From: an uncultured Pseudomonadales bacterium
GTDB lineage: Bacteria; Pseudomonadota; Gammaproteobacteria; Pseudomonadales; Azotimanducaceae
Direction: 5' to 3'
Assembly (NCBI GenBank): GCA_958296195.1
Contig: OY282455.1
Location: forward strand, 4,203,809-4,267,808
Length of the DNA stretch: 64,000 nucleotides
Part shown: positions 39,764 through 61,516 of the stretch, one piece after another
How the letters are laid out: every line of letters begins with the position of its first letter
How positions within the stretch are numbered: position 1 is the first letter of the stretch
The notes under the pieces: generated by a model
What the model was told of the DNA's origin: nothing
The model's database searches: none
What the model saw: only the letters and a program-made list of their open reading frames with translations
Translations under genes and position numbers: made by a program

Positions 39764-39942
39764 AACATGCGCTGCGGCTGCAATTGCAGAGATTTCCTAC
39801 AGACATGGCCCTTGACGAAGCTGCAACCTGCGGCCCATCGTCCGAACGCACGGAAGCGGGGAGACACCCTCCCCTTCAAATATGCTACCTTTCCCCACAG
39901 CAGGAGAAGCGGCGCCCGCGCCCAGAACCGGAGGAACCAGCC
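39764..39942 (+). repeat. Conserved upstream block of Uma2 copy 2
   Basis: This block is nearly the same as 30443-30621, with the palindrome CTGCAATTGCAG at 39778-39789, the CAAATATGCTACC stretch and the GGAGGAACC ribosome site. Together with the coding region it forms a direct repeat of roughly 890 bases, 9.3 kb from the first copy. Confidence 0.7.
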
Positions 39943-45422: not shown

Positions 45423-45691
45423 CAGGGCTCATCCCCCATTGGATAGACCTTGAGGACTGCGTAGCTCACCGTATCCCGAAGGACGTTGAAGTAGCGTCCG
45501 CAGCCAGCCGCGTGGCGCCACATTTCGCGGTGCGCCCCCCGCGAGTTGTGGCGGAAGTGGAGATAGTCGCCCCATTCCCGGTCGGTCAAAGCGGGCGGGT
45601 GAGGCGGGCGGCGAACATGAGCCTCACCACCGTAAGCAAACTCCTCTTCGCTGCGCAGCTCGTGACAGTAGGGACAGCGGATTTGCAGCAT
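45422..45691 (-). CDS. soxD: Sarcosine oxidase delta subunit
   Basis: The protein is 89 residues with the zinc-binding set RCPYCHELRSEEEF near the N terminus and a later Cys in HAAGCGRYFNVLRDT, plus the SoxD string DREWGDYLHFRHNSRGAHREMW. It is a small structural subunit required for the tetramer. Normally it follows soxB directly; here soxB is 9.8 kb upstream, beyond the lasso island. The soxDAG part therefore needs its own promoter. A TATAAT on the minus strand (45784-45779) is the best -10 candidate, without a clear -35. Confidence 0.94.
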   Translation of the reverse strand: MLQIRCPYCHELRSEEEFAYGGEAHVRRPPHPPALTDREWGDYLHFRHNSRGAHREMWRHAAGCGRYFNVLRDTVSYAVLKVYPMGDEP

Positions 45692-45881: not shown

Positions 45882-46751
45882 GTGACAAGCTCGATTTGGC
45901 TGCGCCCTGAGTTACGAGATGCGCTGCTGGGCACAGGAGGTCTCCGCGCTCAGGCCGCGGCAGCCTTGCAGCGACGCGCACTTGACGCCGACGCATTGTG
46001 GCAGATCGGAGACATGGAGCGGGGGGACGGCCATTTTACGGCCGCACATCAGGCATATCGGCGCTTGTGTACGCTCCGCCCCGGCGACCCTTGGGCCTCT
46101 TGGCTATGCGCGATCACCGGCAGCCATCGTTTGCCGGCGCCGCCACCGGGCGTTCGGGCGGCGCCGTTCGTGCAGATCCCGAACTTCCTGACCTCCGCAG
46201 AGGGAGAACGCTTGTTGTCCTGGGCGCAGAACGAGCGCGGACGCTTCGCACCGGGGAAGGTGGGGCCAAGTGGAAAGCGCCGAGTTGACATCTCCGAACG
46301 CCGCGGATTGGCGGCGTCTTCCAAAGCCTGCAAAGACATTGGCGCATGGCTCGTCCCGAAGGTGCGCGCCGTGCTGCCAACCGTCTCGGCGCGGCTGCGG
46401 CTGCAGGGTTTCGATAACTGCCGGATCGTCCCTGTGGCGGTGGCGTATCTCAACGGGGGCTACGGCCGCCCGCATTGCGACCCGCCACCCCTTCTCGGCA
46501 ACTGCTATTTTCACGCGCAGCCGCGCCGCTTCTCCGGTGGCGACTTGTTGCTCTACGATACGGAAGTCGAGACGGGGGACTTCAAAGCCTGCGCGTTCTC
46601 GCGGATCGAGCCGGCCGCCAACAGCATCGTCTTCCATCCCGGCGCCTATATGCATGAGATCACTCGCGTGGTCTGCGGGACGGACCGCTTCACGGACGCA
46701 AGGTTCGCCGTGACTTGCACAATCTGGCCGAATGGCGGCGCAGGAACGTAG
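45882..46751 (+). CDS. 2-oxoglutarate/Fe(II)-dependent oxygenase (prolyl-4-hydroxylase-like)
   Basis: The protein is 289 residues from GTG 45882. The first 80 residues are helical and TPR-like (ADALWQIGDMERGDG, AAHQAYRRLCTLRPGDPWA). The catalytic double-stranded beta-helix shows the metal pair in GRPHCDPPPL (His-x-Asp), GDLLLYD, and the distal His in FHPGAYMHEITRVVCG; an Arg follows for 2-oxoglutarate. It would hydroxylate a peptide or small molecule. It is the only divergent gene of the lasso island, facing away from soxD, so its link to the lasso product is by location only. Confidence 0.82.
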   Translation: MTSSIWLRPELRDALLGTGGLRAQAAAALQRRALDADALWQIGDMERGDGHFTAAHQAYRRLCTLRPGDPWASWLCAITGSHRLPAPPPGVRAAPFVQIPNFLTSAEGERLLSWAQNERGRFAPGKVGPSGKRRVDISERRGLAASSKACKDIGAWLVPKVRAVLPTVSARLRLQGFDNCRIVPVAVAYLNGGYGRPHCDPPPLLGNCYFHAQPRRFSGGDLLLYDTEVETGDFKACAFSRIEPAANSIVFHPGAYMHEITRVVCGTDRFTDARFAVTCTIWPNGGAGT

Positions 46752-46852
46752 TTGTGTGACCTGTTGAACATCCGCCATGCCGAGCGGCCCGGCCTCGCCG
46801 CTGGTGGCCCTGCTGCCGAACGCCGCGAGGCGGCTCGGGCGGGTCATCCCGT

Positions 46853-47731
46853 TCACGCTCCCGCGGCGCCTTCCCCGGCCAGGAACGCCTCGGCGTCTCG
46901 CAGATAGCCGAACCGCTCCATGACCGGCCCGTGCGCGTCCACCAGCGCCCGCACCTGCCGCGGGCGGAGCGCGGTCCGCCAAGACCCCGCCACGCCGGCC
47001 CGGAAGAAGGACGGCGACGGCGGCTGCTTCTCCTCGAACCCGATTTCCTCCTCCTGGGCGCGCAAACGGGGGAAGGCGGCGTGGTCGATGGCCCGCGCGA
47101 GGCGCGCGCCATCCCAATCGAGGCCGGCGAAGCGGACGATCGCGCCGAACGCGGCCCGCGGGTTCGCCAGCAGGTCCTCGTACCGCGTGACATGCACCGG
47201 CAGTTCCCCTTGATCCAACCAACTCGACACATGCCCGCTCCACGTCAGCAGCGGGATCGGCAAAAAGGTGGATAGGCTGGGCCGGGCGCCCCCTAATGTG
47301 GCAGTGGAGTGGTTCATGAACGTCACGGTGTCGTCAATGGTCTGGTGCATTTGGTGCGCGTAGGAAACCACCACGTCAAGGGGATTGCGGACCAAGTAGA
47401 TCACGCCGGCCGTCGCCGCCTTCGGAAACAGGGCCGCGCCGCTTGGCGTGTGGACGCATGCCTCGTGGACTTTGACGAAGGCCGGCGGCGGCATGGCCTC
47501 GGCAAGGGCCTCGTGCAGCAGCGGGCGGTGGCGCATGATTTCCTCCGGCGTCATGTCCGACGAAGGCAGCCCGAGAAACTCGTCGAACGTAAAGCGGACG
47601 CTGGCGGCGCACCAGCCGATCAGGGCGTTGATCGAAGCCGGCTCGCCGGCCTCGTGCAAGTAGTTGGTCAGCACCGCCCGCAGCCAAGTGTTGCCGGACT
47701 TGGGGTAGGAGGCGAGCCAGAAAATCGACAC
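46853..47731 (-). CDS. Sulfotransferase, second of the lasso island
   Basis: The protein is 292 residues from GTG 47731; the frame is open further up, but SIFWLASYPKSGNTWLRAVL is the family N terminus and contains the PAPS 5-prime-phosphosulfate loop. The 3-prime-phosphate site is YLVRNPLDVVVSYAHQ; FVKVHEA provides the usual Lys-x-His catalytic region. It transfers sulfate to an alcohol or phenol. It is the last gene of the minus-strand lasso set, 16 bases after the HPr-kinase-like gene. The lasso core offers Tyr13 and several Ser/Thr as possible acceptors, but this is inference. Confidence 0.88.
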   Translation of the reverse strand: MSIFWLASYPKSGNTWLRAVLTNYLHEAGEPASINALIGWCAASVRFTFDEFLGLPSSDMTPEEIMRHRPLLHEALAEAMPPPAFVKVHEACVHTPSGAALFPKAATAGVIYLVRNPLDVVVSYAHQMHQTIDDTVTFMNHSTATLGGARPSLSTFLPIPLLTWSGHVSSWLDQGELPVHVTRYEDLLANPRAAFGAIVRFAGLDWDGARLARAIDHAAFPRLRAQEEEIGFEEKQPPSPSFFRAGVAGSWRTALRPRQVRALVDAHGPVMERFGYLRDAEAFLAGEGAAGA

Positions 47732-47747
47732 GGATGCTCCCTTGCCG

Positions 47748-48710
47748 TCACCCGGAAGCGCCGGCCGCAGGCGAGCCCGTCTTGGCCTCGCATTCGCGCT
47801 GGTCGCGCTCCCGCAAAGATCGCTCGATCTCGTCCGCCAGCGCATTGATCCGAAACGGGTGGGCGGGCCGCTCCACTCGGGCGATCGGCACCTGCCCCGC
47901 CATGGCCGCGACGGCGCGAAAATGCACCGGGCGCTGGCCGAGCGCGTGCAGGCATCGCTTGCGGTAGGTGTGTTGCAACAGACACTGGAAGGCCGTGTGG
48001 AGTGTGCATGTCTCGATCTCGATGCCGCTCCGGTTGTGGGGCCTCAGCATGTAGGCGGCACGCACGGCCAAGGGGGTGATGCAGAACCGCTCCATCGGCA
48101 GCAGGTATTTCTCGATGCTTTCCCGCACTTTGCCCCGCGTCCGAGGCCACCAACCCAATTCGTCCAGGGCGTCTGTCCACAGGCGCACGGTGGGAAACGC
48201 GGGCAACGCCGTCGGACGTCCGCCGGGGTCCAGGAGGACGCCGGTGACGTCGTCGGCGAGCATGGCGTACCCCCGTTTCAGCATTGCCGAGAGCAGCGAA
48301 GACTTGCCGGCGCCGGAGGAGCCGAGAAACAACACGGCGCCGGCCCGAGTCTCGATGGCGCTGGCGTGCAAGGTGACGACGCCCCGCTGCTGCAACAGCG
48401 CGGCAAACACCGAGCCGGTGAGAAACACGCCCACGTTGTGATCGCTGCCGTGCGGCTCAACCAGGATGTTGCGGCCTTCCGTGACCAGATACCGCGCCAC
48501 CCCGTCCACGTTGATCAGGAACGCACCGGGCGTGCCTTCCCACAGCCTGGTTTTGATGACGGGCGCGGGCAGGGCCGCGGGCACCGCGCCGACGCGAATG
48601 GCGACGTCCGGCTCTTGGTCCGGGGCGCTGGGAGAGGGGGCAAAGGGCAAGGCGATGGGAGAGTGCATCCGCAGCCCGTAGGCCATGTAGTGGTGGAGCG
48701 CGCGGCTCAC
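47748..48710 (-). CDS. HPr-kinase-like protein (lasso-peptide tailoring kinase type)
   Basis: The protein is 320 residues from GTG 48710 (ATG 48686 is an alternative). The C-terminal kinase fold of HprK is seen in LHASAIETRAGAVLFLGSS and the P-loop GSSGAGKSSLLSAML (about residue 128), then MLADDVTGVLLD with the paired Asp. The first 100 residues replace the HprK N-terminal domain (GVARYLVTEGRNILVEP). Proteins of this shape occur in many lasso clusters and some phosphorylate the C-terminal Ser of the peptide. Here the predicted core ends Ser16-Leu17. There is no HPr or PTS gene nearby, which supports the lasso role. Confidence 0.85.
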   Translation of the reverse strand: MSRALHHYMAYGLRMHSPIALPFAPSPSAPDQEPDVAIRVGAVPAALPAPVIKTRLWEGTPGAFLINVDGVARYLVTEGRNILVEPHGSDHNVGVFLTGSVFAALLQQRGVVTLHASAIETRAGAVLFLGSSGAGKSSLLSAMLKRGYAMLADDVTGVLLDPGGRPTALPAFPTVRLWTDALDELGWWPRTRGKVRESIEKYLLPMERFCITPLAVRAAYMLRPHNRSGIEIETCTLHTAFQCLLQHTYRKRCLHALGQRPVHFRAVAAMAGQVPIARVERPAHPFRINALADEIERSLRERDQRECEAKTGSPAAGASG

Positions 48711-48797
48711 GCGAGAGTCGCTCCCGCGCCCTCGAACACCTTAAAGATGAAGTGGACGCGGTCCTGATCGCCGCCGTTGAACGCGCGTTGCCATTTT

Positions 48798-48953
48798 CTA
48801 GCCGTGTAGCCGTGTGGAAGAGGTTGGGCCACTTTTGCCTTCAATGAAATGTCCTATTGCTCTGATGGTCGGTTTGGTCAAGGGCTTCGGCGTCGGCGGG
48901 TCGGTCAGGTCTTCTGAACCAGCACAGGCCGTCGTTCCCGCTTGTGCCCGCAC
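48798..48953 (-). pseudogene. Second lasso-precursor-like peptide, apparently decayed
   Basis: A 51-residue frame from GTG 48953 carries PKPLTKPTIRAIGHFIEG, which matches the leader motif of the main precursor (KKPWTKPIVRIIA). It ends KSGPTSSTRLHG. The tail has no Thr at -2 before a Gly and no Asp/Glu at ring positions 7-9, so a lasso ring cannot be drawn. DNA upstream (around 48943-48985) also matches the DNA just after the cyclase gene (52631-52680), suggesting duplication. It could be a decayed copy or an unusual RiPP. Confidence 0.5.
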
Positions 48954-49002
48954 CTTGAACTCTGGGCGTGGCGTCAGCTTGGAGTCCGTTGACAAGGACG
49001 GG

Positions 49003-49848
49003 TCACATGAGGGCGTAGCCAAAATAGTCAAGGAGGTCCCGATGCGCCCGGAACACGCGATTGAACGCCGCAATATCCTGGGCGTCAAGGCGCGCGATCT
49101 GCCGGGCGTTCATATCGGTCAGCATGTCTTCGTAGTCCTTCACCCGGAGGCGTTGCCGCAGGTTCAGATCGTCGAGCTCGGGAACCAGCGCCCGAATCTC
49201 CTGCGCGACTCGCTCAGGCTGGGCGCACATTGTCTCGTAGGTGAAGAAGACCCCGCGGCTCCGGTGTGCCTCGATGTTGCGGCGCTGCCAAGTCAGGCAG
49301 GTGACGACGTGGGTCGCCGCGGTCTCGGGCAAACTCCTGCCCTGCGCCGCGAACTGGCTCCAGTGCCGGACGAGTCTGGTGCGGTAGCGTCGGCAGATCC
49401 CTTCGCAGACCGCGTAGGGATTGCGCACCATGAACAGGAACCGAGCGTTGCCGAAGTGTTGCGCCAACTGGTCCACGCAGAGGACATGCGGCGGCGATTT
49501 GGTGACGAACACCGAGGCGTGGGGGCTTCTGGCGCGGGCCTGGAAGTACCAGGTCTTGCGGGTGCGCGGCCAGTTGTAGCGGCCCGGGTCCGCGAAGGCG
49601 GCCACCCAACTCGGTTCGGCGGCCCAGATCAGACGGGGGCTCGGGCAGCCGGGCTCCACCGGCTCCCTAGGGCGCGGCCCGGCGAAGCCGCGCATCCCAT
49701 GACCTTCCCGGGGCAGACTCCAGGTCGCTCGGCAGGTCGCCAGCGCCTTGCTCAGGAAGGACGAGCCGCTGTTGTTCTGACAGATGACGAACAGATGCAT
49801 GGTGATCACCCGCTCCATGTCGCGCCCGGCGCCGTACATGCGGGTCAT
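49003..49848 (-). CDS. Sulfotransferase-family protein, first of the lasso island
   Basis: The protein is 281 residues from ATG 49848, which overlaps the glycosyltransferase stop (ATGA). The N-terminal ICQNNSGSSFLSKALATC is the nucleotide loop, with Asn/Ser replacing the common Pro-Arg-Ser. The 3-prime-phosphate motif is FLFMVRNPYAVCEGICRR, followed by ATHVVTCLTWQRRNIEAH and FFTYETMCAQPERVAQEI. A longer open frame to 50532 lies antisense-free but inside the glycosyltransferase gene and is not coding. It is distinct in sequence from the second sulfotransferase of the island, so two different sites or substrates are plausible. Confidence 0.82.
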   Translation of the reverse strand: MTRMYGAGRDMERVITMHLFVICQNNSGSSFLSKALATCRATWSLPREGHGMRGFAGPRPREPVEPGCPSPRLIWAAEPSWVAAFADPGRYNWPRTRKTWYFQARARSPHASVFVTKSPPHVLCVDQLAQHFGNARFLFMVRNPYAVCEGICRRYRTRLVRHWSQFAAQGRSLPETAATHVVTCLTWQRRNIEAHRSRGVFFTYETMCAQPERVAQEIRALVPELDDLNLRQRLRVKDYEDMLTDMNARQIARLDAQDIAAFNRVFRAHRDLLDYFGYALM

Positions 49849-50789
49849 CCGGCGTCCCTTTCGTCCTGCGGCTTGAGCCTGCGGCGCAGGTACACGCTCG
49901 CCAGGATGTCCACGTAGGTGTCGTACCAGAGCTTGAACATCGGCATCGGTGGGCGATCCGGACTGCCTCGTGTCCAGTGGAGCATGGCGTCCGGCATCCA
50001 CGGTTTTACGGCTTCGCTGAAGTGCAGCACCTTGGCGCTGCCGGCGTCCACCCCGTCCTTCGCCCGGATGGCCGCTGCCCAGGGCAGCAGGAAGTTGTAG
50101 GTCCATCCGACCAGCGTCTGTCGCCCGGCGAAATACCGGTTCAGGATGAGTTGATCCGTGTGCGTGATGGGGGCGTCGTCCCAGGTCTCCGGGGACACCA
50201 AGGCCACGAGGTCCGCATGGCAGCGCTCGCCGGTGAACCGCTCGTCGATCAGCAGGAAACCGGCGTTGAAGGTCCGCTCGAAGACGCCCGCGGGGCCTGC
50301 CGGCGCCTCGGGCGGCAGGGGCGCGAAACTGGCGGCGTCCCGGCGCTTGTCGCGCAGGGCCACGGCGTCGCCGCAGCACAGCAGCGGCTCGTCGCGGTCG
50401 AACAGGTCGTCGACGGGCGCTTGGACCAGCACGTCGCTGTCGTAGAACAGCACCTTGCGGTAGCCTCGCAGCCGGAAGGCTTCGAGCGAGTAGAGCAGGG
50501 CGGGTTGTGCGAAGTCCGGGCGCGCGGCGCACAAGCCGGCCAGCCGGGTGCGCAGCCCGGGCGAGACCGGCTCGAACCGCACGCCATCGATCGCTGCGGT
50601 GAGCCGCATGCGGTTCTCCGCGGACAGATTGTCGTGGATGACTTTGATGTCGCCATCGAAGCGCGGATGGTGTTTAAGGAAGGACCGGAGGGTGACCAGC
50701 GTGCCCGGCACGAAGCGGTCCGTGGTCGCGGTGGCCAAGCAGATTTTCGAGGACCCGGCAGGAACCCTGGGCAGTGGCACGACAGGCAT
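49845..50789 (-). CDS. Glycosyltransferase family 8-like protein
   Basis: The protein is 314 residues from ATG 50789. The GT-A fold signatures are ICLATATTDRFVPGTLVTLRSF at the N terminus, the DxD metal site VLFYDSDVLVQAPVDDLF (about residue 116), FNAGFLLIDERF and THTDQLILNRYF, then KVLHFSEAVKPW. This fits GT8-type retaining transferases. It starts 21 bases after the precursor stop and is coupled to the sulfotransferase. In this place it probably modifies the peptide, although glycan or lipid acceptors cannot be ruled out. Confidence 0.82.
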   Translation of the reverse strand: MPVVPLPRVPAGSSKICLATATTDRFVPGTLVTLRSFLKHHPRFDGDIKVIHDNLSAENRMRLTAAIDGVRFEPVSPGLRTRLAGLCAARPDFAQPALLYSLEAFRLRGYRKVLFYDSDVLVQAPVDDLFDRDEPLLCCGDAVALRDKRRDAASFAPLPPEAPAGPAGVFERTFNAGFLLIDERFTGERCHADLVALVSPETWDDAPITHTDQLILNRYFAGRQTLVGWTYNFLLPWAAAIRAKDGVDAGSAKVLHFSEAVKPWMPDAMLHWTRGSPDRPPMPMFKLWYDTYVDILASVYLRRRLKPQDERDAG

Positions 50790-50809
50790 TTCTGCAGAAG
50801 ACTCGCCTG

Positions 50810-50998
50810 CTACAAACTGAAGAAGTACCCCGAGTTTTCAGTCGTACCCGATTTGGGTCCGCCTTTCGTCAGCAGCGCACCGTCCTTAGCAATAATCCTC
50901 ACGATCGGCTTGGTCCAAGGTTTCTTCGGTGCGCCAGCCGCCGTTTCTGCTTCTGCTTGGGGGGGGGGGAGGGGGGGGGGGGTAATTTCATCAGCCAT
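50810..50998 (-). CDS. Lasso peptide precursor (62 aa), predicted core of 17 residues
   Basis: The leader starts at ATG 50998 after an AGGAGA site. It has a Pro run (ITPPPLPPPQAE), then KKPWTKPIVRIIAKDGALLTK. Family rule: Thr at -2 before a Gly that closes a ring on Asp/Glu 7-9 residues on. Here LTK precedes the core GGPKSGTTENSGYFFSL, with Glu at position 9 and aromatic Tyr13, Phe14, Phe15 as possible plugs below a G1-E9 ring. The W-x-KP-V leader motif resembles the site bound by PqqD-like B1 proteins. The encoded Pro run comes from two long G tracts (50959-50982 on the plus strand), which makes this frame prone to slippage or read error. Confidence 0.8.
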   Translation of the reverse strand: MADEITPPPLPPPQAEAETAAGAPKKPWTKPIVRIIAKDGALLTKGGPKSGTTENSGYFFSL

Positions 50999-51057
50999 AG
51001 TTTGTTCTCCTAGCCGTTGGATTGGTGAATCCTAACATTGCTGCTTGGAAGAGGGAG

Positions 51058-51086
51058 AATATAGACCGTCGCGTCTGCTGTGTACA
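51058..51086 (-). promoter_or_regulatory. Promoter of the lasso precursor gene
   Basis: On the minus strand, TGTACA (51086-51081) and TATATT (51063-51058) are separated by 17 bases, a reasonable -35/-10 pair 60 bases ahead of the precursor ATG. The -35 box ends exactly at the target duplication of the insertion sequence, so the element sits just upstream without breaking the promoter. Confidence 0.55.
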
Positions 51087-51102
51087 GGTCCGCGTCGCGT
51101 CC
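51087..51102. repeat. Target site duplication, left copy
   Basis: GGTCCGCGTCGCGTCC is found here and again at 52615-52630, immediately outside both ends of the insertion sequence. All 16 bases are identical. Confidence 0.85.
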
Positions 51103-52614
51103 TGTCAGCCCAAAGCTGTAATGTCCCCTTTCTCCAAAGTAGAAATGTCCCCTTTTGGCTGTGCCGGAGGGCGGGCGGATGTCGGAAGGACTGGTGTTGA
51201 TGAGCGGCAAGAAGGCGGACAGGCTTGGCGTGGTCAGGGACGCGGCGGAGGGTCGGATTCGGCAGCGCCAGGCGGCCGAGCGGCTGGGCTTGGGGGTTCG
51301 CCAGGTCAAGCGCCTGGTGCGGCGCTATCGGGAGCGGGGTGCGTCGGGGTTGGTGTCGAGGCGCCGGGTTCGGCGGCCGAACAACGCGATTGCGCCGGAG
51401 GTGCGCGGGCGGGCGATGGACTTGGTTCGGGAGCGCTACGCGGACTTCGGGCCGACGTTCGCTCGGGAGAAGCTGGTGGAGGTTCACGGCTTCAGGCTGT
51501 CGGCGGAGACGCTGCGCAAGTGGATGCTTGAGGACGGCCTGCGGCGGGCCAAGCCGCGCCGGGGGGCGCCGGTTCGCCAGAGGCGCCCCCGTCGTCCGTG
51601 CTTCGGGGAGCTGGTTCAGGTCGACGGCTCGGAGCACGCCTGGTTCGAGGACCGGGGGCCGCGGTGCTCGCTGATCGTGTTCATCGACGACGCGACCAGC
51701 CGGCTTTTGGCTCTGCGGTTCGTCCCGGCGGAGACCACCGAGGCCTACATGGAGGTGCTGCGCGGCCACTTGGGCGGGCATGGCCGCCCGGTGGCGGTTT
51801 ATTCGGACAAGCATGGGGTCTTCCGGGTGAACCATCGGGAGCGCGAGGGGGAGCTGACGCAGTTCGGGCGGGCGCTGAGGACGCTGGACATCGAGCCGAT
51901 CCATGCGGGCAGCCCGCAGGCGAAGGGGCGGGTGGAGCGGGCCAACGGGACGCTGCAGGACCGCTTGGTCAAGGAGATGCGGCTGCGGGGCATCGACGGC
52001 ATGGAGGCCGGCAACGCCTTCCTGCCGGAGTTCATGGAGGACCACAACCGGCGCTTCGCGGTGGAGCCCCTTTGCCCGGCGGACGCGCACCGGCCGGTGC
52101 TGCACGACGCGGCGGAGCTGGGCCTGATCCTGTCCCTGCACTCGACACGCAAGGTGTCGAGGAGCCTGACGCTCCGCTACCGCGGTCGGGAGCACCAGAT
52201 CCAGGTTCGGGGCCAAGGCTACGGACTGCGCGGCGCCCGGGTGACGGTCTGCGAGGGCTTCGACGGGCGGGTGGCGATTCTTCGGGACGGGCGGCCGCTT
52301 GCGTTCCGGGTGCTGGCCGAGGGGGAGCCGCCCGTTTCCGTGGAGGACGAAAAGAGCGTCCGCCATGCGGTGGACCGGGCCAAGGCGCGCCAACAGGCAC
52401 GCCCGAACTGGAAGCCCGCCCCGGACCATCCTTGGAGGCGGGCGGCGCACGTCGGCGCCGAGCGCACCGCGGCGGGGCCGTGACTTCCGGTCGCTCCGCT
52501 CCCTCCGTTCACGGCCCCGCCGCCCCCCGGCGAATCCAGCGACGGCCGCCAAGGAACCGGAAAGGGGACATTTCTGCTTTGGAGAAAAGGGGACATTTCT
52601 GCTTTGGTTTGACA
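51103..52614 (+). mobile_element. Complete insertion sequence, 1512 bp, ISNCY-like
   Basis: The ends are inverted: the left end reads TGTCAGCCCAAAGC, then a short stretch to AATGTCCCC, and the right end, reversed, reads TGTCAAACCAAAGCAGAAAT and the same. The AAATGTCCCCTTTT motif occurs twice at each end. One transposase gene fills the interior, and a 16-bp direct duplication flanks the element, so it appears complete and fairly recent. It lies between the cyclase and precursor genes of the lasso cluster, in opposite orientation to them. Confidence 0.9.
51179..52483 (+). CDS. DDE transposase of the insertion sequence
   Basis: The protein is 434 residues from ATG 51179. The N-terminal helix-turn-helix is RQRQAAERLGLGVRQVKRLV. 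The integrase-type catalytic core has Asp in GELVQVDGSEHAWFE, Asp in VAVYSDKHGVFR and Glu in KGRVERANGTLQDRLVKEM, the complete DDE triad. The C-terminal domain (LTLRYRGREHQIQVRGQGY) is as in ISNCY/ISPlu15-like proteins. No frameshift or stop is seen, so it should be active. Confidence 0.92.
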   Translation: MSEGLVLMSGKKADRLGVVRDAAEGRIRQRQAAERLGLGVRQVKRLVRRYRERGASGLVSRRRVRRPNNAIAPEVRGRAMDLVRERYADFGPTFAREKLVEVHGFRLSAETLRKWMLEDGLRRAKPRRGAPVRQRRPRRPCFGELVQVDGSEHAWFEDRGPRCSLIVFIDDATSRLLALRFVPAETTEAYMEVLRGHLGGHGRPVAVYSDKHGVFRVNHREREGELTQFGRALRTLDIEPIHAGSPQAKGRVERANGTLQDRLVKEMRLRGIDGMEAGNAFLPEFMEDHNRRFAVEPLCPADAHRPVLHDAAELGLILSLHSTRKVSRSLTLRYRGREHQIQVRGQGYGLRGARVTVCEGFDGRVAILRDGRPLAFRVLAEGEPPVSVEDEKSVRHAVDRAKARQQARPNWKPAPDHPWRRAAHVGAERTAAGP

Positions 52615-52630
52615 GGTCCGCGTCGCGTCC
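52615..52630. repeat. Target site duplication, right copy
   Basis: Identical to 51087-51102. Together they define the insertion point 67 bases after the cyclase stop. Confidence 0.85.
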
Positions 52631-52697
52631 GGTTGTGCCCTCCCCTTGAAATTTGGGCGCAGCCTGGACGGACCCCGGGGCGCAGCGTTTTGTCCGG

Positions 52698-54536
52698 TCA
52701 GAAGTCAAGGAACTGCACGGCGTTGTGAATGGGCATGAGTTGCGGCTTGGCCCGGAACAGGTCCGGGTCCAGGCGCTCAAGGAGGCGCGGCATGTCGATG
52801 AAGCGGGCGCGGGATGGTGCGGCGCCGGTGGCCAGCGCCCGCCGGACCACCGGCAGGGCCTCGGCGAAGGATTCGATGAACGGCTCATAGCGGGCCGGAT
52901 CGGCCTTGCTCGAGTTCCAGCAGAGTTCGGGCGGCAGTACCGACCGGAGCGCGTGGCGCATCAGCCAGCGGGTCTGCCGCCCGCGCCTGAACTGCTCGGG
53001 CGGCAGGCCCAGCGCAAACTCCAGCAACCGGCGGTCCAGCAGCGGGTAACGGTACTCCATGCCGTGCGCCGCGCCGCTCGCGGCCCACCCTTCGATGCGT
53101 TGGCTCAGATGCCCGGCCTGCAGCATCTGTAACTGCGTGTCCCGCACGCCGACCTGCCGGGGAATTCGCCTGGGCGCGGGTTTCACGCGGCGGGCGAACG
53201 CCGGGTCAATGAGCCAGCGCCGATGACGAAGCCCGTCTCCTCGCCGCAGCCTGCGAAGGATGCCCGGCAGGTCGGGATGCACGAGGGGCAGCGCGACGCT
53301 CGCCAGGAACTTGATCGGGTTGACCTCGCGGGCGCGGCCCTCGGTGAGCAACCTCAGCCAGCGCCCGGTGAGGAGCAGGTGCGCGTGGTGGCCGTGGCCG
53401 TTGAACGACGCGCCCTCGTCGCCGCCCCATCCCGACAGCAGCACGCGCACGCCTTGTTCCGCGGCGCAGCGCTGCACCACCATCTCGTTCGGGTGGACGT
53501 GGACGCCGGGGCAGGCCCCGTCGCGCCGCAGCATGGCGACGACGTCGCCCGGGCTCGGCGCCCGGTGAAAGACCTGGATCCCTTCCTGCGCGCACACCGC
53601 GGCGATGGCGTCGTACTCGGCCGCGTGAGACTCGCTGGGTGGGTGGTCGCCAAGCGTTGGCAGCCAACTGAAGGCGAGCGGCGACGGCCGGCCTTGACGC
53701 CGCAATTCACGGGCGGCCAACACCGCAATGCTGGAGGAATCCAGGCCGCCGCTGAGGTGCACGCCCACGGGGTCGGGGCCGCGCAAACGGTCCGTCACGG
53801 CCTGCGCGTAGAGATTCAGGAACTCCTCGGCGTAGGCGTCGTCGGAGGCCGCTCGAGCCGCGGGCGCATGCTCGGGACGCCAGTACCGTTCCAGCCGTGC
53901 CTCTCCACCCTTGATGGTCAGCGTATGGCCGGGCGGCAGCTTGCGGACCGCCTTGAAGAACGTGTGCGTCGTCGTTCCCAGCATGGGGCGCGTCAAGTGC
54001 GCCGCCACGGTGGCTTCATCCAGTTCGCCGGAGACGCCGGGCGCGGCGAGCACGGCTTCGACGGCGCTGGCGAAGACGAGGCCTCGCGGCGTCTGGGCGT
54101 AGTGGAAGGGCCGGGCGCCGGCGTGGTCGCGGGCGCAGAAGAGCACGCGCTGCTTGGCGTCCCATACGGCGAAGGCGTAGTCCCCGAGCAGGTGGGTCGG
54201 ACACGCCCGGCCCCAGCGCGCGTAGGCTCGGAGAATGAGTTCGTCGTCGGTGACGTCGGCCCGGTCGGGGTGAGGGACGCCGAGGGCGTCGCAGAGCGAC
54301 TCGCGGTCGTCAAGGCGGGCGTCCGCGGTGAGGGCGAGGCCGGTCGCGGGGTCGAAGCGGGGCAGGCGGTCGGCTCGCTCGCCCTCCGTCCCCGTGCGCC
54401 GGCAGCCGAGCCCAACGCCTGCGTCCGTCCACGTCGCGCCGTCGGCCCCGTAGTCGGAGAGTGCCGCCAGCATGGGGTCGAGGCCGTTTGCGCCCTCCTG
54501 GCGACGGAGCTGGCATCCGCAGATGGCGCGCATCAC
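52698..54536 (-). CDS. Asparagine-synthetase-like lasso cyclase (C protein)
   Basis: The protein is 612 residues from ATG 54536. The N-terminal glutaminase-like domain (GLALTADARLDDRESLCDAL, GDYAFAVWDAKQRVLFCARDHAGARPF) lacks the Cys at position 2 needed for glutamine hydrolysis (MMRAICG). The C-terminal ATP-pyrophosphatase domain has the VHLSGGLDSSSIAVLAAREL loop and LLSGWGGDEGASFNGHG. This is the pattern of lasso cyclases, which adenylate the Asp/Glu side chain and close the macrolactam. The PqqD-like gene lies 65 bases upstream. A plain asparagine synthetase is less likely given the context. Confidence 0.88.
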   Translation of the reverse strand: MMRAICGCQLRRQEGANGLDPMLAALSDYGADGATWTDAGVGLGCRRTGTEGERADRLPRFDPATGLALTADARLDDRESLCDALGVPHPDRADVTDDELILRAYARWGRACPTHLLGDYAFAVWDAKQRVLFCARDHAGARPFHYAQTPRGLVFASAVEAVLAAPGVSGELDEATVAAHLTRPMLGTTTHTFFKAVRKLPPGHTLTIKGGEARLERYWRPEHAPAARAASDDAYAEEFLNLYAQAVTDRLRGPDPVGVHLSGGLDSSSIAVLAARELRRQGRPSPLAFSWLPTLGDHPPSESHAAEYDAIAAVCAQEGIQVFHRAPSPGDVVAMLRRDGACPGVHVHPNEMVVQRCAAEQGVRVLLSGWGGDEGASFNGHGHHAHLLLTGRWLRLLTEGRAREVNPIKFLASVALPLVHPDLPGILRRLRRGDGLRHRRWLIDPAFARRVKPAPRRIPRQVGVRDTQLQMLQAGHLSQRIEGWAASGAAHGMEYRYPLLDRRLLEFALGLPPEQFRRGRQTRWLMRHALRSVLPPELCWNSSKADPARYEPFIESFAEALPVVRRALATGAAPSRARFIDMPRLLERLDPDLFRAKPQLMPIHNAVQFLDF

Positions 54537-54601
54537 GCGCCGTTCCCGTGGGGTCGGAAGTGGGTCATGTCGCCCGATGTGCCGTCCAGGGTCCGAATGG
54601 T

Positions 54602-54952
54602 CTAGGCCTGATCGGATTGAACGTGGATGATCCTCAGGGTGCTCGCCGCTTGCAGGAATTCCAGAGTATCGCGGCGGCAGACGTCGAGATCGACGTCGTA
54701 CTCGGCCGCCAGCGCGTCGCAGATTTCGGCGGTGGGCCGGGCGGTTTCCAACAATGTCCAGATTTTCGCGGCGACCGGACCGAATTCGTAGTACTGCTCC
54801 TCGTCAACGTCCATCATGATGATGACGTCGTCGAGATCCGTGAAGACGATGGCTTCGTTGCGCACCACCCGGGAGGTGAGTTCGATGACTGCGTCTGATT
54901 GACTTGGGGTGTCGCGGTCGCTTTGGTTGTTAGGCGCATCCTTTGACATCAT
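54602..54952 (-). CDS. PqqD-like leader-binding protein (lasso B1, RRE)
   Basis: The protein is 116 residues from ATG 54952. PqqD signatures are in AIVFTDLDDVIIMMDVDEEQYYEFGPVAAKIWTLLE and the helical end DALAAEYDVDLDVCRRDTLEFLQ. By family knowledge, such proteins bind the precursor leader through a winged-helix/strand fold and present it to the peptidase and cyclase. A free-standing B1 normally has a separate B2 cysteine peptidase. None is found beside it. It starts the operon; DNA upstream is transposon debris. Confidence 0.85.
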   Translation of the reverse strand: MMSKDAPNNQSDRDTPSQSDAVIELTSRVVRNEAIVFTDLDDVIIMMDVDEEQYYEFGPVAAKIWTLLETARPTAEICDALAAEYDVDLDVCRRDTLEFLQAASTLRIIHVQSDQA

Positions 54953-55471: not shown

Positions 55472-56722
55472 TCAATGGGCCACGCCGGCGGCCCCGTGCT
55501 CGTCTATCAGCGCCCCTGTGTGAAAGCGCTCCAAGCTGAACGGCGCGGCCAGTGGATGCGGGCGATCGTTGGCCAGCGTGTCGGCGAACACGTAGCCGGA
55601 ACCGGGCGTGGCCTTGAAGCCGCCGGTGCCCCAGCCGCAGTTGAAGTACAGCCCGTCCACCGGCGTCTTGCCGATGATGGGGCAGGCGTCCGGGCAGACA
55701 TCGACGATGCCGGCCCATTGCCGGTTCATGCGCACCCGGCCAAAGGCCGGAAAGAGTTCGCACACCGCCTGCAGAGCCTGTTCGACGACATGGAAGGAGC
55801 CTCGCTGGCCGTAGCCGTTGTAGGCGTCCGCACCGGCCCCGATCACCAGATCGCCCTTGTCCGACTGGCTGATGTAGCAATGCACCGCGTTGGACATCAC
55901 CACGGTGTCCAGGCAGGGCTTCAAGGGTTCCGAGACCAGCGCCTGCAGGGGGCGGGACTCGATTGGCAGGCGCAGCCCGGCCAGCGCCGCCAAAACTCCG
56001 GAGTGGCCGGCCGCCACGCAGCCGACCTTGTGCGCGCCGATGAATCCTCGGCTGGTTGCCACGCCCACCGCGGCGCCTTTTTCGATGCGAATGCCCGTCA
56101 CCTCCGTATGCTGCAGCAAGTCCACGCCCAAGGCGTCCGCGGCGCGGGCGAAGCCCCAGGCCACGGCGTCATGGCGGGCGACGCCGCCGCGCGGCTGCCA
56201 AGAGGCGCCCAACACCGGATAGCGGGCCTTGGGCGAACAGTTCAGCAAAGGAACCTTCGCCTGCACTTCGGCGGCGGTCAGCACTGCGCCGTCGATGCCG
56301 TTCAATTGGTTGGCATTGACGCGCCGTTCGATGTCCCGCATTTCCTGCAGGGAGTGCCCCAAGTTGAGCACCCCCCGGGGGCTGAACATGACGTTGAAGT
56401 TCAGCTCCAGGCTTAGGTTCTCCCATAGCTTGAGGGCGAACTCATAGAGGTGCGCCGCCTCGTCGCGCAGGTAGTTGGAGCGCACGATGGTGGTGTTGCG
56501 CCCGGTGTTGCCGCCGCCGAGCCAGCCCTTCTCCAGCACCGCCACGTCGGTGACGCCATGTTCCTTGGCCAAGTAGTAGGCGGTGGCCAAGCCGTGCCCG
56601 CCGCCGCCGACGATGACCACCTCGTAGGCTTCCCGCGGCGTCGGGCTGCGCCAGGCGGGACGCCAGTTCTCATGGTGGCGGGCGGCGTGCTTGACGAGGT
56701 TCAAAAAGGAGTACTTCTCCAT
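55472..56722 (-). CDS. soxB: Sarcosine oxidase beta subunit
   Basis: The protein is 416 residues from ATG 56722 with the usual opening [12 protein letters not shown]. The FAD site is [41 protein letters not shown] contains the His known in SoxB to hold FMN covalently. The C-terminal [20 protein letters not shown] closes the FAD pocket. This subunit oxidises sarcosine. It is intact, but its normal neighbour soxD is 9.8 kb away. If the operon was once continuous, soxB keeps the original promoter, in the 430 bases shared with the RND genes. Confidence 0.95.
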
Positions 56723-57153
56723 GCTCAAGCAACCCGCTTGCAGACTGTTGGACGGAATCTTCCGCTCACCTTCAAATTCACCCTTGATTCATCCTCAGCC
56801 AAGCCGCCGGCCCCATACCGCCAAGGCGCATCCTAGACGCGCCGCGGTTGCGTTCCAAGCATAGGCCGAAGCGGCCACGCCACCCAAGATTCGCTGGACA
56901 AAGGATTTCCGGCCCCTACAATTGCCTCCACCGATTTGGAGTGACCAAATTGGCCGCAACACCCACATTCAACGGGCAACGCTGGATTTTCAACGGGCAA
57001 CGCTGGATTTTCGGCGAACAATGCAGCCCATGCACACCATGCACAAGCAGACCGCCGAGCTTTTTTCGGCGAAATTTTGTCCCGACGCCGCCAGACCAAG
57101 TATAAGCCGCCATCGGATGCGGTGCTTCATCCAACGGTGGAGGCGGTGACGCC
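56723..57153. other. Intergenic region between soxB and the RND operon
   Basis: These 431 bases separate the divergent genes and should hold both promoters. The one clear structure is a 21-bp tandem repeat (56968-57009). Open frames that cross it are low-complexity shadows. No known operator was recognised. Confidence 0.45.
56968..57009. repeat. Perfect 21-bp tandem duplication
   Basis: The 21-base unit beginning TTCAACGGGCAACGC and ending TGGATT occurs twice without change, with the first two bases of a third copy. It lies in the soxB/RND intergenic region. Confidence 0.8.
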
Positions 57154-58332
57154 GTGAACTGGGAATGGCTGATCGCCGCCTCCGCGAAGCGTCAATGGCT
57201 GCTTCCCAGCCTAGTCATCCTCGCGGCGCTCTGCGGCGCCGCGCTGCTCATCTTGACCAGCCCGCAGGTGGAGCCCAACAGCCCGGAACCCTTGGCGCCT
57301 ACGGTGCGGGTGCGGGAAGCCGTTCCCCAAGCGGTGCGTTTGCTCGTGCATTCGCAAGGCACGGTGGTGCCGAACAAGATCACCGCGCTGATCCCGGAGG
57401 TGGCCGGGCGAGTGGTCTGGATTGCCCCAACGCTGGTAAACGGCGGCTATTTCCAGCAGGGCGACGTCTTGTTGCGGCTGGACGACAAGGACCACCGCTC
57501 CGCCCTGCAGCGGGCGCAAGCGGCCTTGACTCGGGCGGAGGCCGAATACGACCACGCCCGCTACGAATATCAACGCATGCTGAGCTTGGAGCAACGCAGA
57601 CTGGCCAGCCGCTCGCAGATGGAGAACGCCTTGAAGGAGTCTCGGGTCAAAGAGGCGGCCCAGCAGGACGCCCGCGCCAACCTGGACCAAGCACAGCGGG
57701 ACTTGCAGCGCACCGAGGTTAAGGCGCCCTTCACCGGGTTGGTGCAAAACGAGTCGGTTGACGTCGGTCAGCTAGTCGGTCGCAACTCCGCGGTCGCCAC
57801 CCTCTACGCCGTTGACCAAGTGGAGGTGCGCCTGCCCATTGCAGACCGGCAACTCGCCTTCCTCAGCCTTCCAGTCGGGCAACGGGGCGCCCTGCCCGAG
57901 GGCCGGCAACCGGCCGTCCAGCTTTCCGCCGACTACGCCGGCCGCACCCTGGGCTGGCCCGCTCGCATCGTCCGCACCGAAGCGGAAATCGACGTCGCCA
58001 GCCGCATGGTGAACGTAGTCGCCCGGGTGGAGGCCGATAGCCACGCGGATCTCCCAGCGGTTGGTTTGTTCGTTGAGGCAGAAATCGAGGGCTTGCTGGT
58101 CGATGACATCGTGGTGATGCCGCGCAATGTCCTGCGCAACGGCAACCGGGTGTTGATCGTCGATGCGGACAATCGCCTGCGCTTCCGCGACATCGAGCCC
58201 TTGCGCCTGTACCAGGACGACGTGCTTATCCGCAGCGGGCTGGCGCAGGGGGAGCGAGTTTGCCTCTCCACCTTGCAGACCCCCATAGAGGGGATGCGCG
58301 TTCTCCCCATTAAGGAAGCCGCAACCGGCTGA
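57154..58332 (+). CDS. RND efflux periplasmic adaptor (membrane fusion protein)
   Basis: The protein is 392 residues from GTG 57154. A signal anchor near residues 18-36 (LPSLVILAALCGAALLILT) is followed by the lipoyl half-motif GTVVPNKITALIPEVAGRV, a coiled-coil hairpin (about residues 115-190) and the second half PFTGLVQNESVDVGQLVGR, then beta-barrel and membrane-proximal domains. It links an RND pump to an outer-membrane channel. The pump gene starts 13 bases downstream. No outer-membrane factor is present, so one from elsewhere would be used. Confidence 0.9.
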   Translation: MNWEWLIAASAKRQWLLPSLVILAALCGAALLILTSPQVEPNSPEPLAPTVRVREAVPQAVRLLVHSQGTVVPNKITALIPEVAGRVVWIAPTLVNGGYFQQGDVLLRLDDKDHRSALQRAQAALTRAEAEYDHARYEYQRMLSLEQRRLASRSQMENALKESRVKEAAQQDARANLDQAQRDLQRTEVKAPFTGLVQNESVDVGQLVGRNSAVATLYAVDQVEVRLPIADRQLAFLSLPVGQRGALPEGRQPAVQLSADYAGRTLGWPARIVRTEAEIDVASRMVNVVARVEADSHADLPAVGLFVEAEIEGLLVDDIVVMPRNVLRNGNRVLIVDADNRLRFRDIEPLRLYQDDVLIRSGLAQGERVCLSTLQTPIEGMRVLPIKEAATG

Positions 58333-58345
58333 TCGGAACCCGTTC

Positions 58346-61300
58346 ATGCACACCGCCATCGCTTGGTTTACGCGCAATCCGGTCGCCGCCAACTTGCTCA
58401 TGAGCTTGCTCTGCATCAGCGGAATCATGTCGTTGCTCGTCGTCAATCAAGAAGAGTTCCCCAACATTGACCCACAGGTGGTGTCCATCACCGTGCCCTA
58501 CCTGGGCGCCGCGCCGGCCGAAGTGGAGCAGGGCGTGTGCATTCGCATCGAGGAGGCCATCGATGGCGTCGAAGGCATCGACAGCATGCAATCCAACGCC
58601 GGCGAAGGCGCCTGCAACCTCATGGTGGAGCTGGAGCTTGACGCCGACCCAGTGGTGGTGCTGAACGAAATCAAGAGCCATGTGGATGGCATCAACAGCT
58701 TCCCGGTGGAGACCGAGAAGCCCATAGTCTCCAAGTTGTCCCTGAACCGGCAGGTGGTGCAGGTCGCCGTGTCAGGCGACACCAGCGAACGCGCCCTCAA
58801 GGAGGTGGGTCAAAGGCTGCGCGACGGCATCGCCGCCTTGGACGGCGTCTCCCAAGTAAGCCTCAAGTACGTTCGCCCCTACGAGATATCCATAGAGGTT
58901 TCCGAGCAGGCCCTGCGGCGCCACGGCATCACCTTGGAGCATGTGACCCACGCCGTCCGCAACAGTTCGCTGGACATGCCCGGCGGCACCATCAAGTCCG
59001 AGGGGGGGGAGATACTCATCCGCTCCAAGGGGCAGGCCTACCACGGCGAGGAGTTCGAAGCCATCGTGGTGCTGACCCGCACCGACGGCCACAAGGTCAC
59101 CCTGGCGGAGATCGCGGACATCCGCGACAGCTTTGAGGAAGGCGACCTGTACGCTCGCTTCAACGGCAACCCGGCGGTGGTGGTCGATGTGGCGCAGGTG
59201 GGGGAGGAGGACCTTCTGCGAATCGCCGAGGACGTCAAGGGCTACGTCGCCGAGGCCCAGCGCATGGCGCCGGAGGGGTTGACCTTCACCATCTGGACCG
59301 ACACCTCCGTGGAGCTGATAGATCGCCTCAACGCCTTGAAAAGCACCGCCGGCGGCGGCCTAGTGCTGGTGCTCATCATATTGGCGCTGTTTCTTCGCTT
59401 CCGCCTTGCCATGTGGGTGGCGGCCGGCATTCCCATCGCCCTGTTGGGCTGCATCGGCACCTTCCCCTACGTTGACGTCAACATCAGCACCCTGACGGTC
59501 ATCGCCTTCATTCTGGTGCTGGGCATTCTGGTGGATGACGCCATCGTGGTGGGGGAGCGCGTCCACGCCCATGAACAACTGGGCAAGGGCCGGGTGCAGG
59601 CCGCCATTGACGGCACCCGGGAGGTCTCCATACCAGTCATCTTCGGGGTGCTGACCACGATGGCGGCGTTCCTGCCCTTGGTGCTCGTGGAAGGCCGCCT
59701 GGGGGACTTCTTCGGCTCCATCGGCTTCGTGGTCATCATCGCCCTCGTCTTCAGCATCATCGAATCCCAATTGATCCTGCCCGCCCACTTGGCCTATCGC
59801 AAGCGCGACCAGGAGGGCGGTGGCTTCATCAGCCGCTGGAACCGGATGCAGGGGCGCATGGCGGACGGCCTGCAGCACCTGGCCGACCGCTACTACCTGC
59901 CGCTGGCGCGGCGCGCCATCGCTAGGCGCTACCTCACCGCCGCCATCGGCGTGGCGGTGCTGATTCTGGCCTTGGCGCTGATTGCCAGCGGTCGGGTGGT
60001 GTTCAGCTTTTTCCCATCCATTGAAGGCGACCGCATCTACGCCGCGGTGGAGCTGCCGGAAGGGGTCCCGGTCGAGGAGACCATTCGCGCCGCCCAACAG
60101 ATTGAGCGGGCCGCCTTCGAGTTGAACGAAGAGCTTGCCGAAACCCTGGGACTGGAGAGCGGCCCCATCGCCAACCAACTGACCAGCATCGGCACGGCCG
60201 TGAGTCGGGACGGCCCCGGCCGCCCGCCGCAGCCCGGCCGCAGCCACTTTGCGGAGATCGTCGTTGAACTGCCGTCCGACGTATTGGACGATCTCAGCAC
60301 CAAGGAACTCGCCAAGCGCTGGCGCGAGCTGGCCGGCCCCATCCCCGACGCCGTGAAGCTGACCTTCAACGCCGATCAGTTCTCGGTGGGGGAGCCGATC
60401 AACTACGAGATCAGCGGTGCGGACGTGGACCAGCTGCGGGCGGCGGCGGCGGAGCTGCGCGCCGAGCTCAGCCGCTACGCCGGGGTCTTCGACATCGCCG
60501 ACTCCTTCCGCGCCGGCAAGCAGGAGATCAAGCTGAACTTGCTGCCGGAGGCGCGCAACCTGGGCCTCACCTTGGGAGATCTAGCCCGCCAAGTGCGCAA
60601 CGCCTTCTACGGCGCCGAGGCGCAACGGGTGCAGCGCGGCCGGGATGACCTGCGGGTGATGGTGCGCTTTCCTGAAGAGGAGCGAAGGTCCCTCGGCAAC
60701 CTGGAGGACATGTACATCCGCACCCCGGACGGCAAGGAAGTGCCCTTCCACAGCGTCGCCCAGTTCGAGTTGGGCCGCGGCTACTCCTCCATTCGCCGTG
60801 CCGACCGACAACGGGTGGTCAACGTGACGGCCGATGTTGACCGAGCGCAGATCCGGCCGGAGGAGGTGATGAACAGCCTCGACAGCGAAGTGCTGCCGAA
60901 GCTGAAGCGCAAGTTCCCCGGCATCCGCATCAACAAGGAGGGCGAACAGGAGGAGCGGGACGAAGGCATGATGGCCTTGGCCCAAGGCGCTCTGCTTTCA
61001 TTGGTGATGATCTACGGGCTGCTGGCGGTGCCGCTCAGAAGCTATGTGCAGCCGCTGGTCATCATGAGCGTCATACCCTTCGGCGCGGTGGGCGCCATCT
61101 TCGGCCACTGGGTGATGGGAGTGCAGCTCATGTTCTTCTCGGCCCTCGGCATGGTGGCGCTTTCCGGCGTGGTGGTGAACGCCAGCCTCGTGCTGGTGGA
61201 CTACGTCAACCGGCGGCGGCGGGAGGGCATGTCCGTGGATGAAGCCTTGGTGACCAGTTGTGGGGTGCGCTTCCGAGCCATCATCTTGACTTCGGTGACC

Positions 61301-61516
61301 ACCTTCGTCGGTCTCATCCCGCTGATGAGCAACCAAACGCCGAACACCCTGCCCTTCATCCCCATGGCCATCGCCCTAGCCTACGGGGTGCTGTTCGCCA
61401 CGTTCATCACTTTATTCTATGTCCCCGTGCTGTACCGCATCGCTGAGGACATCTTCGGCTGGAATCCCGTTACGCAAGGCATGGGCAAGGCTGAGGCGCA
61501 GGCCGCTGAGATCTGA
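58346..61516 (+). CDS. RND-family efflux permease
   Basis: The protein is 1056 residues, typical for HAE-type pumps. It opens HTAIAWFTRNPVAANLLMS. Periplasmic loops hold LELDADPVVVLNEIKSHVDGI; transmembrane helix 4 holds LVLGILVDDAIVVGERVHAHE, with the paired Asp used for proton relay; the C-terminal half repeats the fold with LSGVVVNASLVLVDYVNRRRR. The two halves and about twelve helices are intact. It is the inner-membrane proton/drug antiporter. The substrate cannot be told from sequence. Confidence 0.94.
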   Translation: MHTAIAWFTRNPVAANLLMSLLCISGIMSLLVVNQEEFPNIDPQVVSITVPYLGAAPAEVEQGVCIRIEEAIDGVEGIDSMQSNAGEGACNLMVELELDADPVVVLNEIKSHVDGINSFPVETEKPIVSKLSLNRQVVQVAVSGDTSERALKEVGQRLRDGIAALDGVSQVSLKYVRPYEISIEVSEQALRRHGITLEHVTHAVRNSSLDMPGGTIKSEGGEILIRSKGQAYHGEEFEAIVVLTRTDGHKVTLAEIADIRDSFEEGDLYARFNGNPAVVVDVAQVGEEDLLRIAEDVKGYVAEAQRMAPEGLTFTIWTDTSVELIDRLNALKSTAGGGLVLVLIILALFLRFRLAMWVAAGIPIALLGCIGTFPYVDVNISTLTVIAFILVLGILVDDAIVVGERVHAHEQLGKGRVQAAIDGTREVSIPVIFGVLTTMAAFLPLVLVEGRLGDFFGSIGFVVIIALVFSIIESQLILPAHLAYRKRDQEGGGFISRWNRMQGRMADGLQHLADRYYLPLARRAIARRYLTAAIGVAVLILALALIASGRVVFSFFPSIEGDRIYAAVELPEGVPVEETIRAAQQIERAAFELNEELAETLGLESGPIANQLTSIGTAVSRDGPGRPPQPGRSHFAEIVVELPSDVLDDLSTKELAKRWRELAGPIPDAVKLTFNADQFSVGEPINYEISGADVDQLRAAAAELRAELSRYAGVFDIADSFRAGKQEIKLNLLPEARNLGLTLGDLARQVRNAFYGAEAQRVQRGRDDLRVMVRFPEEERRSLGNLEDMYIRTPDGKEVPFHSVAQFELGRGYSSIRRADRQRVVNVTADVDRAQIRPEEVMNSLDSEVLPKLKRKFPGIRINKEGEQEERDEGMMALAQGALLSLVMIYGLLAVPLRSYVQPLVIMSVIPFGAVGAIFGHWVMGVQLMFFSALGMVALSGVVVNASLVLVDYVNRRRREGMSVDEALVTSCGVRFRAIILTSVTTFVGLIPLMSNQTPNTLPFIPMAIALAYGVLFATFITLFYVPVLYRIAEDIFGWNPVTQGMGKAEAQAAEI

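Follow-up and report, generated by a model that had tools for sequence, protein, structure and literature searches.

How might a lasso-peptide precursor be matured from a gene cluster that has no leader peptidase of its own? The question is raised by a stretch of 64,000 nucleotides (the window) at positions 4203809-4267808 of contig OY282455.1, the 4.31 Mb chromosome of an uncultured Pseudomonadales bacterium (G000, here called the own genome). An initial annotation had described a lasso-peptide cluster with a large tailoring set in 9 kb of this stretch. Profile matches to Pfam and NCBIfam, together with motifs and fold, bear out its eight genes: the precursor (A), the PqqD-like protein B1, the macrolactam synthetase C, a GT8 glycosyltransferase, two sulfotransferases (ST1 and ST2), the kinase homologue HPrK and a 2-oxoglutarate (2OG)-Fe(II) oxygenase (Table 1). 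That inventory was right, but it missed an ISNCY-family transposase, the opposite strand of the oxygenase, the remnants of a precursor and of a hydroxylase and, above all, the absence of a B2 leader peptidase from the cluster, as judged by a genome-wide profile search with PF13471. We consider it probable that the window is one spoke of a genome-wide lasso system, in which mobile cassettes of precursor, C and tailoring genes would be served in trans by a small hub of B1 and B2 proteins.

Gene counts and positions can be read directly from the chromosome. Precursor hidden Markov model (HMM) A1, built from 16 own sequences and applied at E <= 1e-5, has 24 matches in the own genome, 22 without stops and two with a stop. 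Ten full-length C genes (E <= 1e-60, no stops) are present, nine of the window's kind and one divergent; the eight other window-kind C are 56-66% identical to that of the window. A second divergent C is frameshifted, and there are two further C fragments. B1 occurs as four intact genes and a truncated one, GT8 as 15 matches, 13 of them full-length, with one gene split in two. Just one B2 exceeds the PF13471 cut-off by which B2 was counted. Located at 1215804-1216157, it is also over the NF033537 lasso-B2 cut-off (71.1 versus 33 bits) and lies 3.04 Mb along the contig from the window C, nearer if the chromosome is circular; a B2 remnant contains two stops. The end of an adjoining NTP_transf_5 gene is overlapped by the B2 gene, and a resistance-nodulation-division (RND) adaptor and RND pump follow (L040, G000:C1:1211553-1217503), possibly a shared exporter. 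A precursor at 1222878 is about 7 kb from this B2.

With distances taken linearly along the contig and a threshold of 15 kb, a B2 is near none of the ten own C and near 5 of the 35 full-length C in seven related OY282-series metagenome-assembled genomes (MAGs, G038-G044; the four partial ones among their 39 C matches are omitted). The outgroups (G045-G051) give 5 of 5, which is nearer to four independent cases, as G045 and G048 carry near-identical C, and which omits the fragmented G046 and G047, where C and B2 are on different contigs. C and B2 are both single in six outgroups (G045, G047, G048, G049, G050 and G051); G046, also with a single B2, has three C matches, one full and the other two partial. 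The ratio of the own genome is repeated in multi-locus relatives: the numbers of C, precursors and B2 over cut-off are 13, 21 and 1 in G042 and 6, 19 and 1 in G039. They are 6, 5 and 1 in G040, 4, 4 and 1 in G041, 5, 3 and 1 in G038, 3, 5 and 1 in G043, and 2, 2 and 2 in G044, the relatives' precursor counts being lower bounds because the HMM was made from own precursors.

Closer taxonomic neighbours do not share the system. The eight genus-mates have no C, precursor or GT8 of the window kind at the thresholds used; with 15 matches in the own genome and none in these eight, GT8 thus follows the lasso system. A member of the same family, G016, has one distant C match (E 1.8e-68) and no precursor match. 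The nearest C loci belong to OY282-series MAG chromosomes that are recorded as uncultured Pseudomonadales or Gammaproteobacteria.

Both B1 and C of the window score best on lasso models, albeit below the curated cut-offs. For C, the NCBIfam lass_lactam_cya model gives 366.5 bits (cut-off 525) versus 186.2 for asparagine synthase; the protein is without Cys2, reading M-R-A-I-C-G, and its nearest kin is that of locus L078 of OY282460 (86%). The longest open reading frame (ORF) of B1 begins at 55015, but a start at MMSKD agrees with the broken copy in L039. No family match was found for the window precursor. Its leader contains WTKPIV at residues 28-33, satisfying [Y/W]xxPx[L/V/I/F/A], the leader motif of discrete lasso recognition elements for ribosomally synthesized and post-translationally modified peptides (RREs and RiPPs, respectively; PMC13381572). 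Recurring at 24 places in the own genome at E <= 1e-5 and in none of the eight genus-mates, this leader motif indicates that the precursor is more than a chance reading frame. All 16 of the aligned own precursors keep its Trp and Pro, which would be expected of leaders read by few B1 proteins. The predicted core, GGPKSGTTENSGYFFSL, would form a Gly1-Glu9 ring, with Thr at leader position -2 (T-K followed by GGPKSGTTE at the predicted cleavage site), in keeping with lasso cores, which begin with a small residue and carry Glu or Asp at 7-9. These features uphold the lasso identity proposed initially, as does the fact that, in other genomes, members of the precursor family adjoin C, GT8 and ST2; the proposal would have been in doubt for a precursor not conserved beside such partners.

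The predicted cores are hypervariable. Within one leader family of nine members, identity is 16% inside the ring (9 pairs of equal length), 48% in the tails (16 pairs) and 81% in the leaders (36 pairs); the family was chosen by a pattern fixing about half of the leader, so the last value is partly due to choice, while the 16% is not. A looser core pattern, [SAGT][GAS]x6[ED], is present in 14 of 19 distinct own tails and 22 of 43 tails of relatives (the latter retaining L100, a frame artefact), which implies that ring size or cleavage site varies.

A mechanism can be proposed in which the few B1 proteins would read the common leader motif (W-x-K-P) of scattered precursors, and the one distant B2, beside the nucleotidyltransferase gene and RND pump, would cut the leaders in trans. 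The C of each locus would close the ring of its own hypervariable core, while nearby pairs of GT8 with ST2 and of HPrK with ST1, plus oxygenase genes, would decorate the cores, possibly across loci. It is from sequence that we infer the action of B1 and B2 in trans, the modified residues, the order of steps, export and the making of any product.

The history of the cassettes is consistent with their mobility. In a C tree of 48 rows (a quick tree with support from the Shimodaira-Hasegawa-like approximate likelihood ratio test only, 12 of its 45 inner branches being open), the nine own window-kind C fall in nine separate lineages, six with a close partner in another genome. Recent amplification within the genome was therefore rejected as the source of the many C. 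Genome labels on the tree need 37 changes, compared to a shuffled mean of 33.7, so the C copies do not group by genome. Low synonymous divergence (dS) between most cassettes of different lineages is observed directly: it is 0.04-0.24 for 15 of the 16 C partner pairs tested between genomes, with ORFs taken from stop to stop and upstream codons thereby added. SoxB, the single comparison marker (not found in G038 at the threshold used), has a dS of 0.51 to a genus-mate and 0.80-1.03 to six multi-locus relatives (7 genomes). Horizontal movement of cassettes best explains the low values of C relative to SoxB. The own B2 is far from the B2 of relatives (dS 1.36-1.94). A plasmid search with C returned 354 records, all below 60% identity.

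The window itself is a mosaic, as indicated by the missing B2, two remnants, a transposed oxygenase and insertion between soxB and soxD. Its segments match different loci: B1-C is 89.7% identical in nucleotide sequence to L078, HPrK-ST1 90.5% to L039 and the oxygenase about 94% to L034. Of the two remnants, the decayed second precursor reads PKPLTKPTIRAIG..., with the invariant Trp gone and the ring Glu absent; the other derives from an aspartyl beta-hydroxylase whose ORF is longer in the sister locus L078. The oxygenase runs on the strand opposite to the rest of the lasso genes. Matching oxygenases lie directly upstream of C in L034, L090, L091 and L092, and the DNA identity to these copies, together with the trailing 50 bp of the same C, marks it as a transposed piece that is not obviously part of the window pathway. 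Although its Pfam match is sub-threshold (E 7.2e-4), the HxD...H...R set is invariant across seven homologues, and the AlphaFold model (predicted local distance difference test score 73.7) has a 2OG-Fe(II) oxygenase as its best PDB match (Foldseek E 3.6e-9).

The initial annotation had envisaged a self-contained cluster, its product bearing phosphate, sulfate, sugar and hydroxyl groups. All the enzyme genes are indeed found in 9 kb with recognisable motifs, and in Sphingorhabdus soli (L115) and Citromicrobium (L135) GT8, ST2, HPrK and ST1 are found together with B1, C and B2, so the tailoring set is that of a cluster type already known. We find such a product very unlikely, however, with B2 outside the cluster, a precursor tail that ends in -SL and not in -S, an oxygenase copied in on the opposite strand and joined to a scrap of another C gene, and remnants of a second precursor and a hydroxylase that indicate rearrangement. 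These remnants could also belong to a decaying mosaic that makes nothing, pieced together from other loci and split by an insertion sequence (IS), with function only at those other loci. The IS between C and A, the separate matches to L078, L039 and L034, and the ratios of nonsynonymous to synonymous divergence (dN/dS), 0.73 for C versus its closest partner (inflated by the stop-to-stop ORFs) and 0.70 for HPrK, would agree with decay. The main genes, on the other hand, have uninterrupted reading frames in which catalytic motifs can be recognised, and a unit of A, GT8 and ST2 occurs in L036 with no C found nearby, so the IS need not break an operon; decay of the whole cluster is unlikely. It might also be that the scattered C are independent of B2, another cellular protease removing the leaders and no hub being shared. 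Pseudomycoidin, which is reportedly synthesised without leader and leader peptidase, counts in favour of such independence. So do the unclustered proteases known for lanthipeptides (PMC8960859). Yet a B2 over the cut-off is present in all 15 genomes examined that have such a C, and the leaders retain the RRE-binding motif, leaving B2-independent maturation with little probability.

The shared hub has to be weighed against several contrary observations. The invariant leader Trp and Pro may say little about B1, as the motif is general to lasso peptides; a divergent locus (2.126-2.139 Mb) holds two of the own B1, and the cleavage of some leaders could be the work of an unrelated protease. A weak second PF13471 match (22.8 bits, cut-off 26) is present in a 545-residue frame. 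Remnants of C, B1, precursors and B2 show that some loci are decaying, and the dN/dS of the window C mentioned above, with the values of 0.70 and 0.68 for HPrK, may reflect relaxed constraint. The remaining C pair, L039-L084, has a dS of 0.81, and the own C of L039, L045 and L048 are on long branches. The B2 fusions of G039 and G042 have a dS of 0.33, well below the SoxB dS of 1.03, so B2 also moved between some lineages and is not simply resident. In each of G038, G040, G041 and G042, one C still has both B1 and B2 less than 15 kb away, so the scattering may be recent. Finally, the own genome is not alone in having several C per B2: the single loci L130, L134, L141, L145 and L147 each hold two C near one B2.

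The tails of the precursors bear on the tailoring reactions. Ser is the last residue of 15 of the 19 own tails and of 38 of the 43 from relatives; the window precursor, ending FFSL (-Ser-Leu), is an exception. Lasso kinases phosphorylate the C-terminal Ser (PMC8498205, PMC9266682), making a phosphate on the window product doubtful; the window HPrK could serve other precursors instead. The HPrK translation contains the His-Lys-Asp-Asp residues named as the lasso kinase motif in PMC9266682, and a sequence search of the PDB gave no matches at E <= 0.01. A Tyr stands among the final 12 residues in 17 of the 19 own tails and in 42 of the 43 from relatives. L108-L110 and L113 have it too, with no GT8 or ST2 seen in the stretches examined; several precursors from Halomonas-type loci that carry HPrK without ST1 (L117, L126, L133, L137 and L139) lack it. 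The distribution of Tyr gives no clean link to ST1 or to GT8/ST2, and no residue is assigned as acceptor.

Table 1. Lasso genes of the window, remnants and flanking genes
Feature	Position	Strand	Basis
TPR + 2OG-Fe(II) oxygenase, transposed copy	45882..46751	+	93.7-94.7% nucleotide identity to oxygenase of L034, L090, L091, L092
50-bp fragment of another locus's C gene	46751..46800	+	96% to L034 10926-10975
Sulfotransferase ST1 (Sulfotransfer_1), YPKSGNTW motif	46853..47731	-	PF00685 E 2.2e-22; 88% identical copy in L039
HPrK-like lasso kinase	47748..48710	-	Sub-threshold Pfam/NCBIfam HprK-related matches only; 81% identical copy in L039
Aspartyl/asparaginyl beta-hydroxylase C-terminal remnant, approximate limits	48707..48787	-	Matches end of L078 ORF (PF05118 E 8.5e-11)
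Decayed second precursor, approximate limits	48798..48908	-	Translation; synteny with L039 precursor upstream of HPrK
Sulfotransferase ST2 (Sulfotransfer_3), start codon uncertain	49003..49848	-	PF13469 E 6.7e-13; aligned with 9 paralogues
GT8 glycosyltransferase, DSD motif	49845..50789	-	PF01501 E 2.6e-17
Precursor A, 62 residues	50810..50998	-	1 of 24 HMM A1 matches in own genome
ISNCY-family transposase between C and precursor	51155..52483	+	NF033594 441.5 bits (cut-off 250)
C, lasso macrolactam synthetase, SGGLDSS motif	52698..54536	-	PF00733 E 1.9e-34
B1, PqqD-like RRE protein	54602..54952	-	PF05402 E 4.5e-16; best NCBIfam lasso_PqqD_Bac 55.3 bits (cut-off 80)
SoxB	55472..56728	-	Split by cluster from soxD (45422-45691) and soxA (42279-45422)
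RND adaptor + pump beside cluster	57154..61516	+	RND_mfp 151.8 bits (over cut-off); RND permease 437.3 bits (under cut-off)

The lasso cluster interrupts a sarcosine oxidase operon, of which soxB, soxD and soxA are adjacent in the genus-mate G001. Among the 18 soxB loci compared, soxD adjoins soxB in 13; it is also missing near soxB in G039, G043 and G044. A role of the RND adaptor and pump next to the cluster in export is speculation.

Elsewhere in the own genome, L034/L035 (G000:C1:185281-210438) is a dense lasso region with two full C, several GT8, ST2 and oxygenase genes, and three precursor copies whose cores are identical. A second, divergent lasso type in L043/L044 (G000:C1:2126238-2139170) comprises two B1, two C (one frameshifted), HPrK, ST1, oxygenases and precursors with W-T-E-P leaders. 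Two GT8 domains share one open frame of 726 residues in L048 (G000:C1:3382156-3384060); such frames, which may encode fused enzymes, are also found in G040, G041 and G042 (723, 981 and 983 residues). In the window, a DrmD-like helicase (938 bits), which we take to point to DISARM, is located beside a 2546-residue protein with an N-terminal TmtA-like match; this region (3119-13443) is possibly a defence island. Two closely similar ORFs, at 30463-31440 and 39784-40803, encode putative Uma2-type proteins.

Genome mining normally looks for lasso clusters as compact A-B-C units. Should more than 20 precursors depend on one B2 and a few B1, mining rules that demand a B2 in the cluster would miss most of the repertoire, and the hub enzymes would then lend themselves, as broadly tolerant tools, to the making of lasso libraries. 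That most cyclase pairs have a low dS between genomes that are otherwise distant suggests that RiPP cassettes are traded. More tentatively, the hub may turn its host into a recipient of horizontally traded cassettes with precursor, cyclase and tailoring genes only; these would be useless outside hub carriers, and the hub would define a closed exchange community with a large combinatorial library of lasso peptides bearing sulfate, sugar and phosphate. A literature search, with most subscription journals outside its coverage, turned up no case of one B2 shared among many lasso loci.

The tailoring set, which the initial annotation considered new, is already in print as a genomic observation (PMC4289311, PMC9426513). 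An HPr kinase with a sulfotransferase was noted in lasso clusters in 2014 (PMC4289311), and a 2021 review mentions a sulfotransferase, a nucleotidyltransferase and the fusion of the latter to B2 (PMC8498205). PMC10040529 gives a comparable series of gene names, including lasso B2, nucleotidyltransferase, sulfotransferases, PqqD, asparagine synthase and glycosyltransferase. The highly modified lasso families of sponge microbiomes described in 2022 share sulfo-, glyco- and nucleotidyl-transferases and oxidoreductases with the present system; the section on them reports clusters, with no per-genome counts, single B2 or mobile cassettes (PMC9426513). No paper was found that names any of four OY282 records looked up, and a sponge origin of their hosts is a conjecture.

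Paeninodin-type systems likewise have separate B1 and C, a WxxP leader and an HPrK homologue with His-Lys-Asp-Asp that acts on the C-terminal Ser, the residue with which 15 of 19 own tails end. Here, in contrast, B2 is distant, no ABC (ATP-binding cassette) exporter is seen in the cluster, the window tail is -SL, sulfotransferases and GT8 are added, and there are many loci per genome. The NTP_transf_5 gene that adjoins and overlaps the own B2 may correspond to PsmN, the nucleotidyltransferase that pseudomycoidin has besides a kinase. In L078, NTP_transf_5 and B2 are fused and an ABC transporter follows, such a fusion being mentioned in the review PMC8498205. The nucleotidyltransferase of the own genome is outside the window and would serve a multi-locus system, a difference from pseudomycoidin. 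The prochlorosins reportedly arise from many precursors through one promiscuous enzyme, and the likeness lies in one shared processing enzyme for many precursors with variable cores. The own genome fits the pattern of a single processing enzyme with many unlinked precursors (one B2, 22 stop-free precursors, 0 of 10 C near B2); the difference is that here leader peptidase and RRE would be shared, while the ring-forming enzyme is multiplied.

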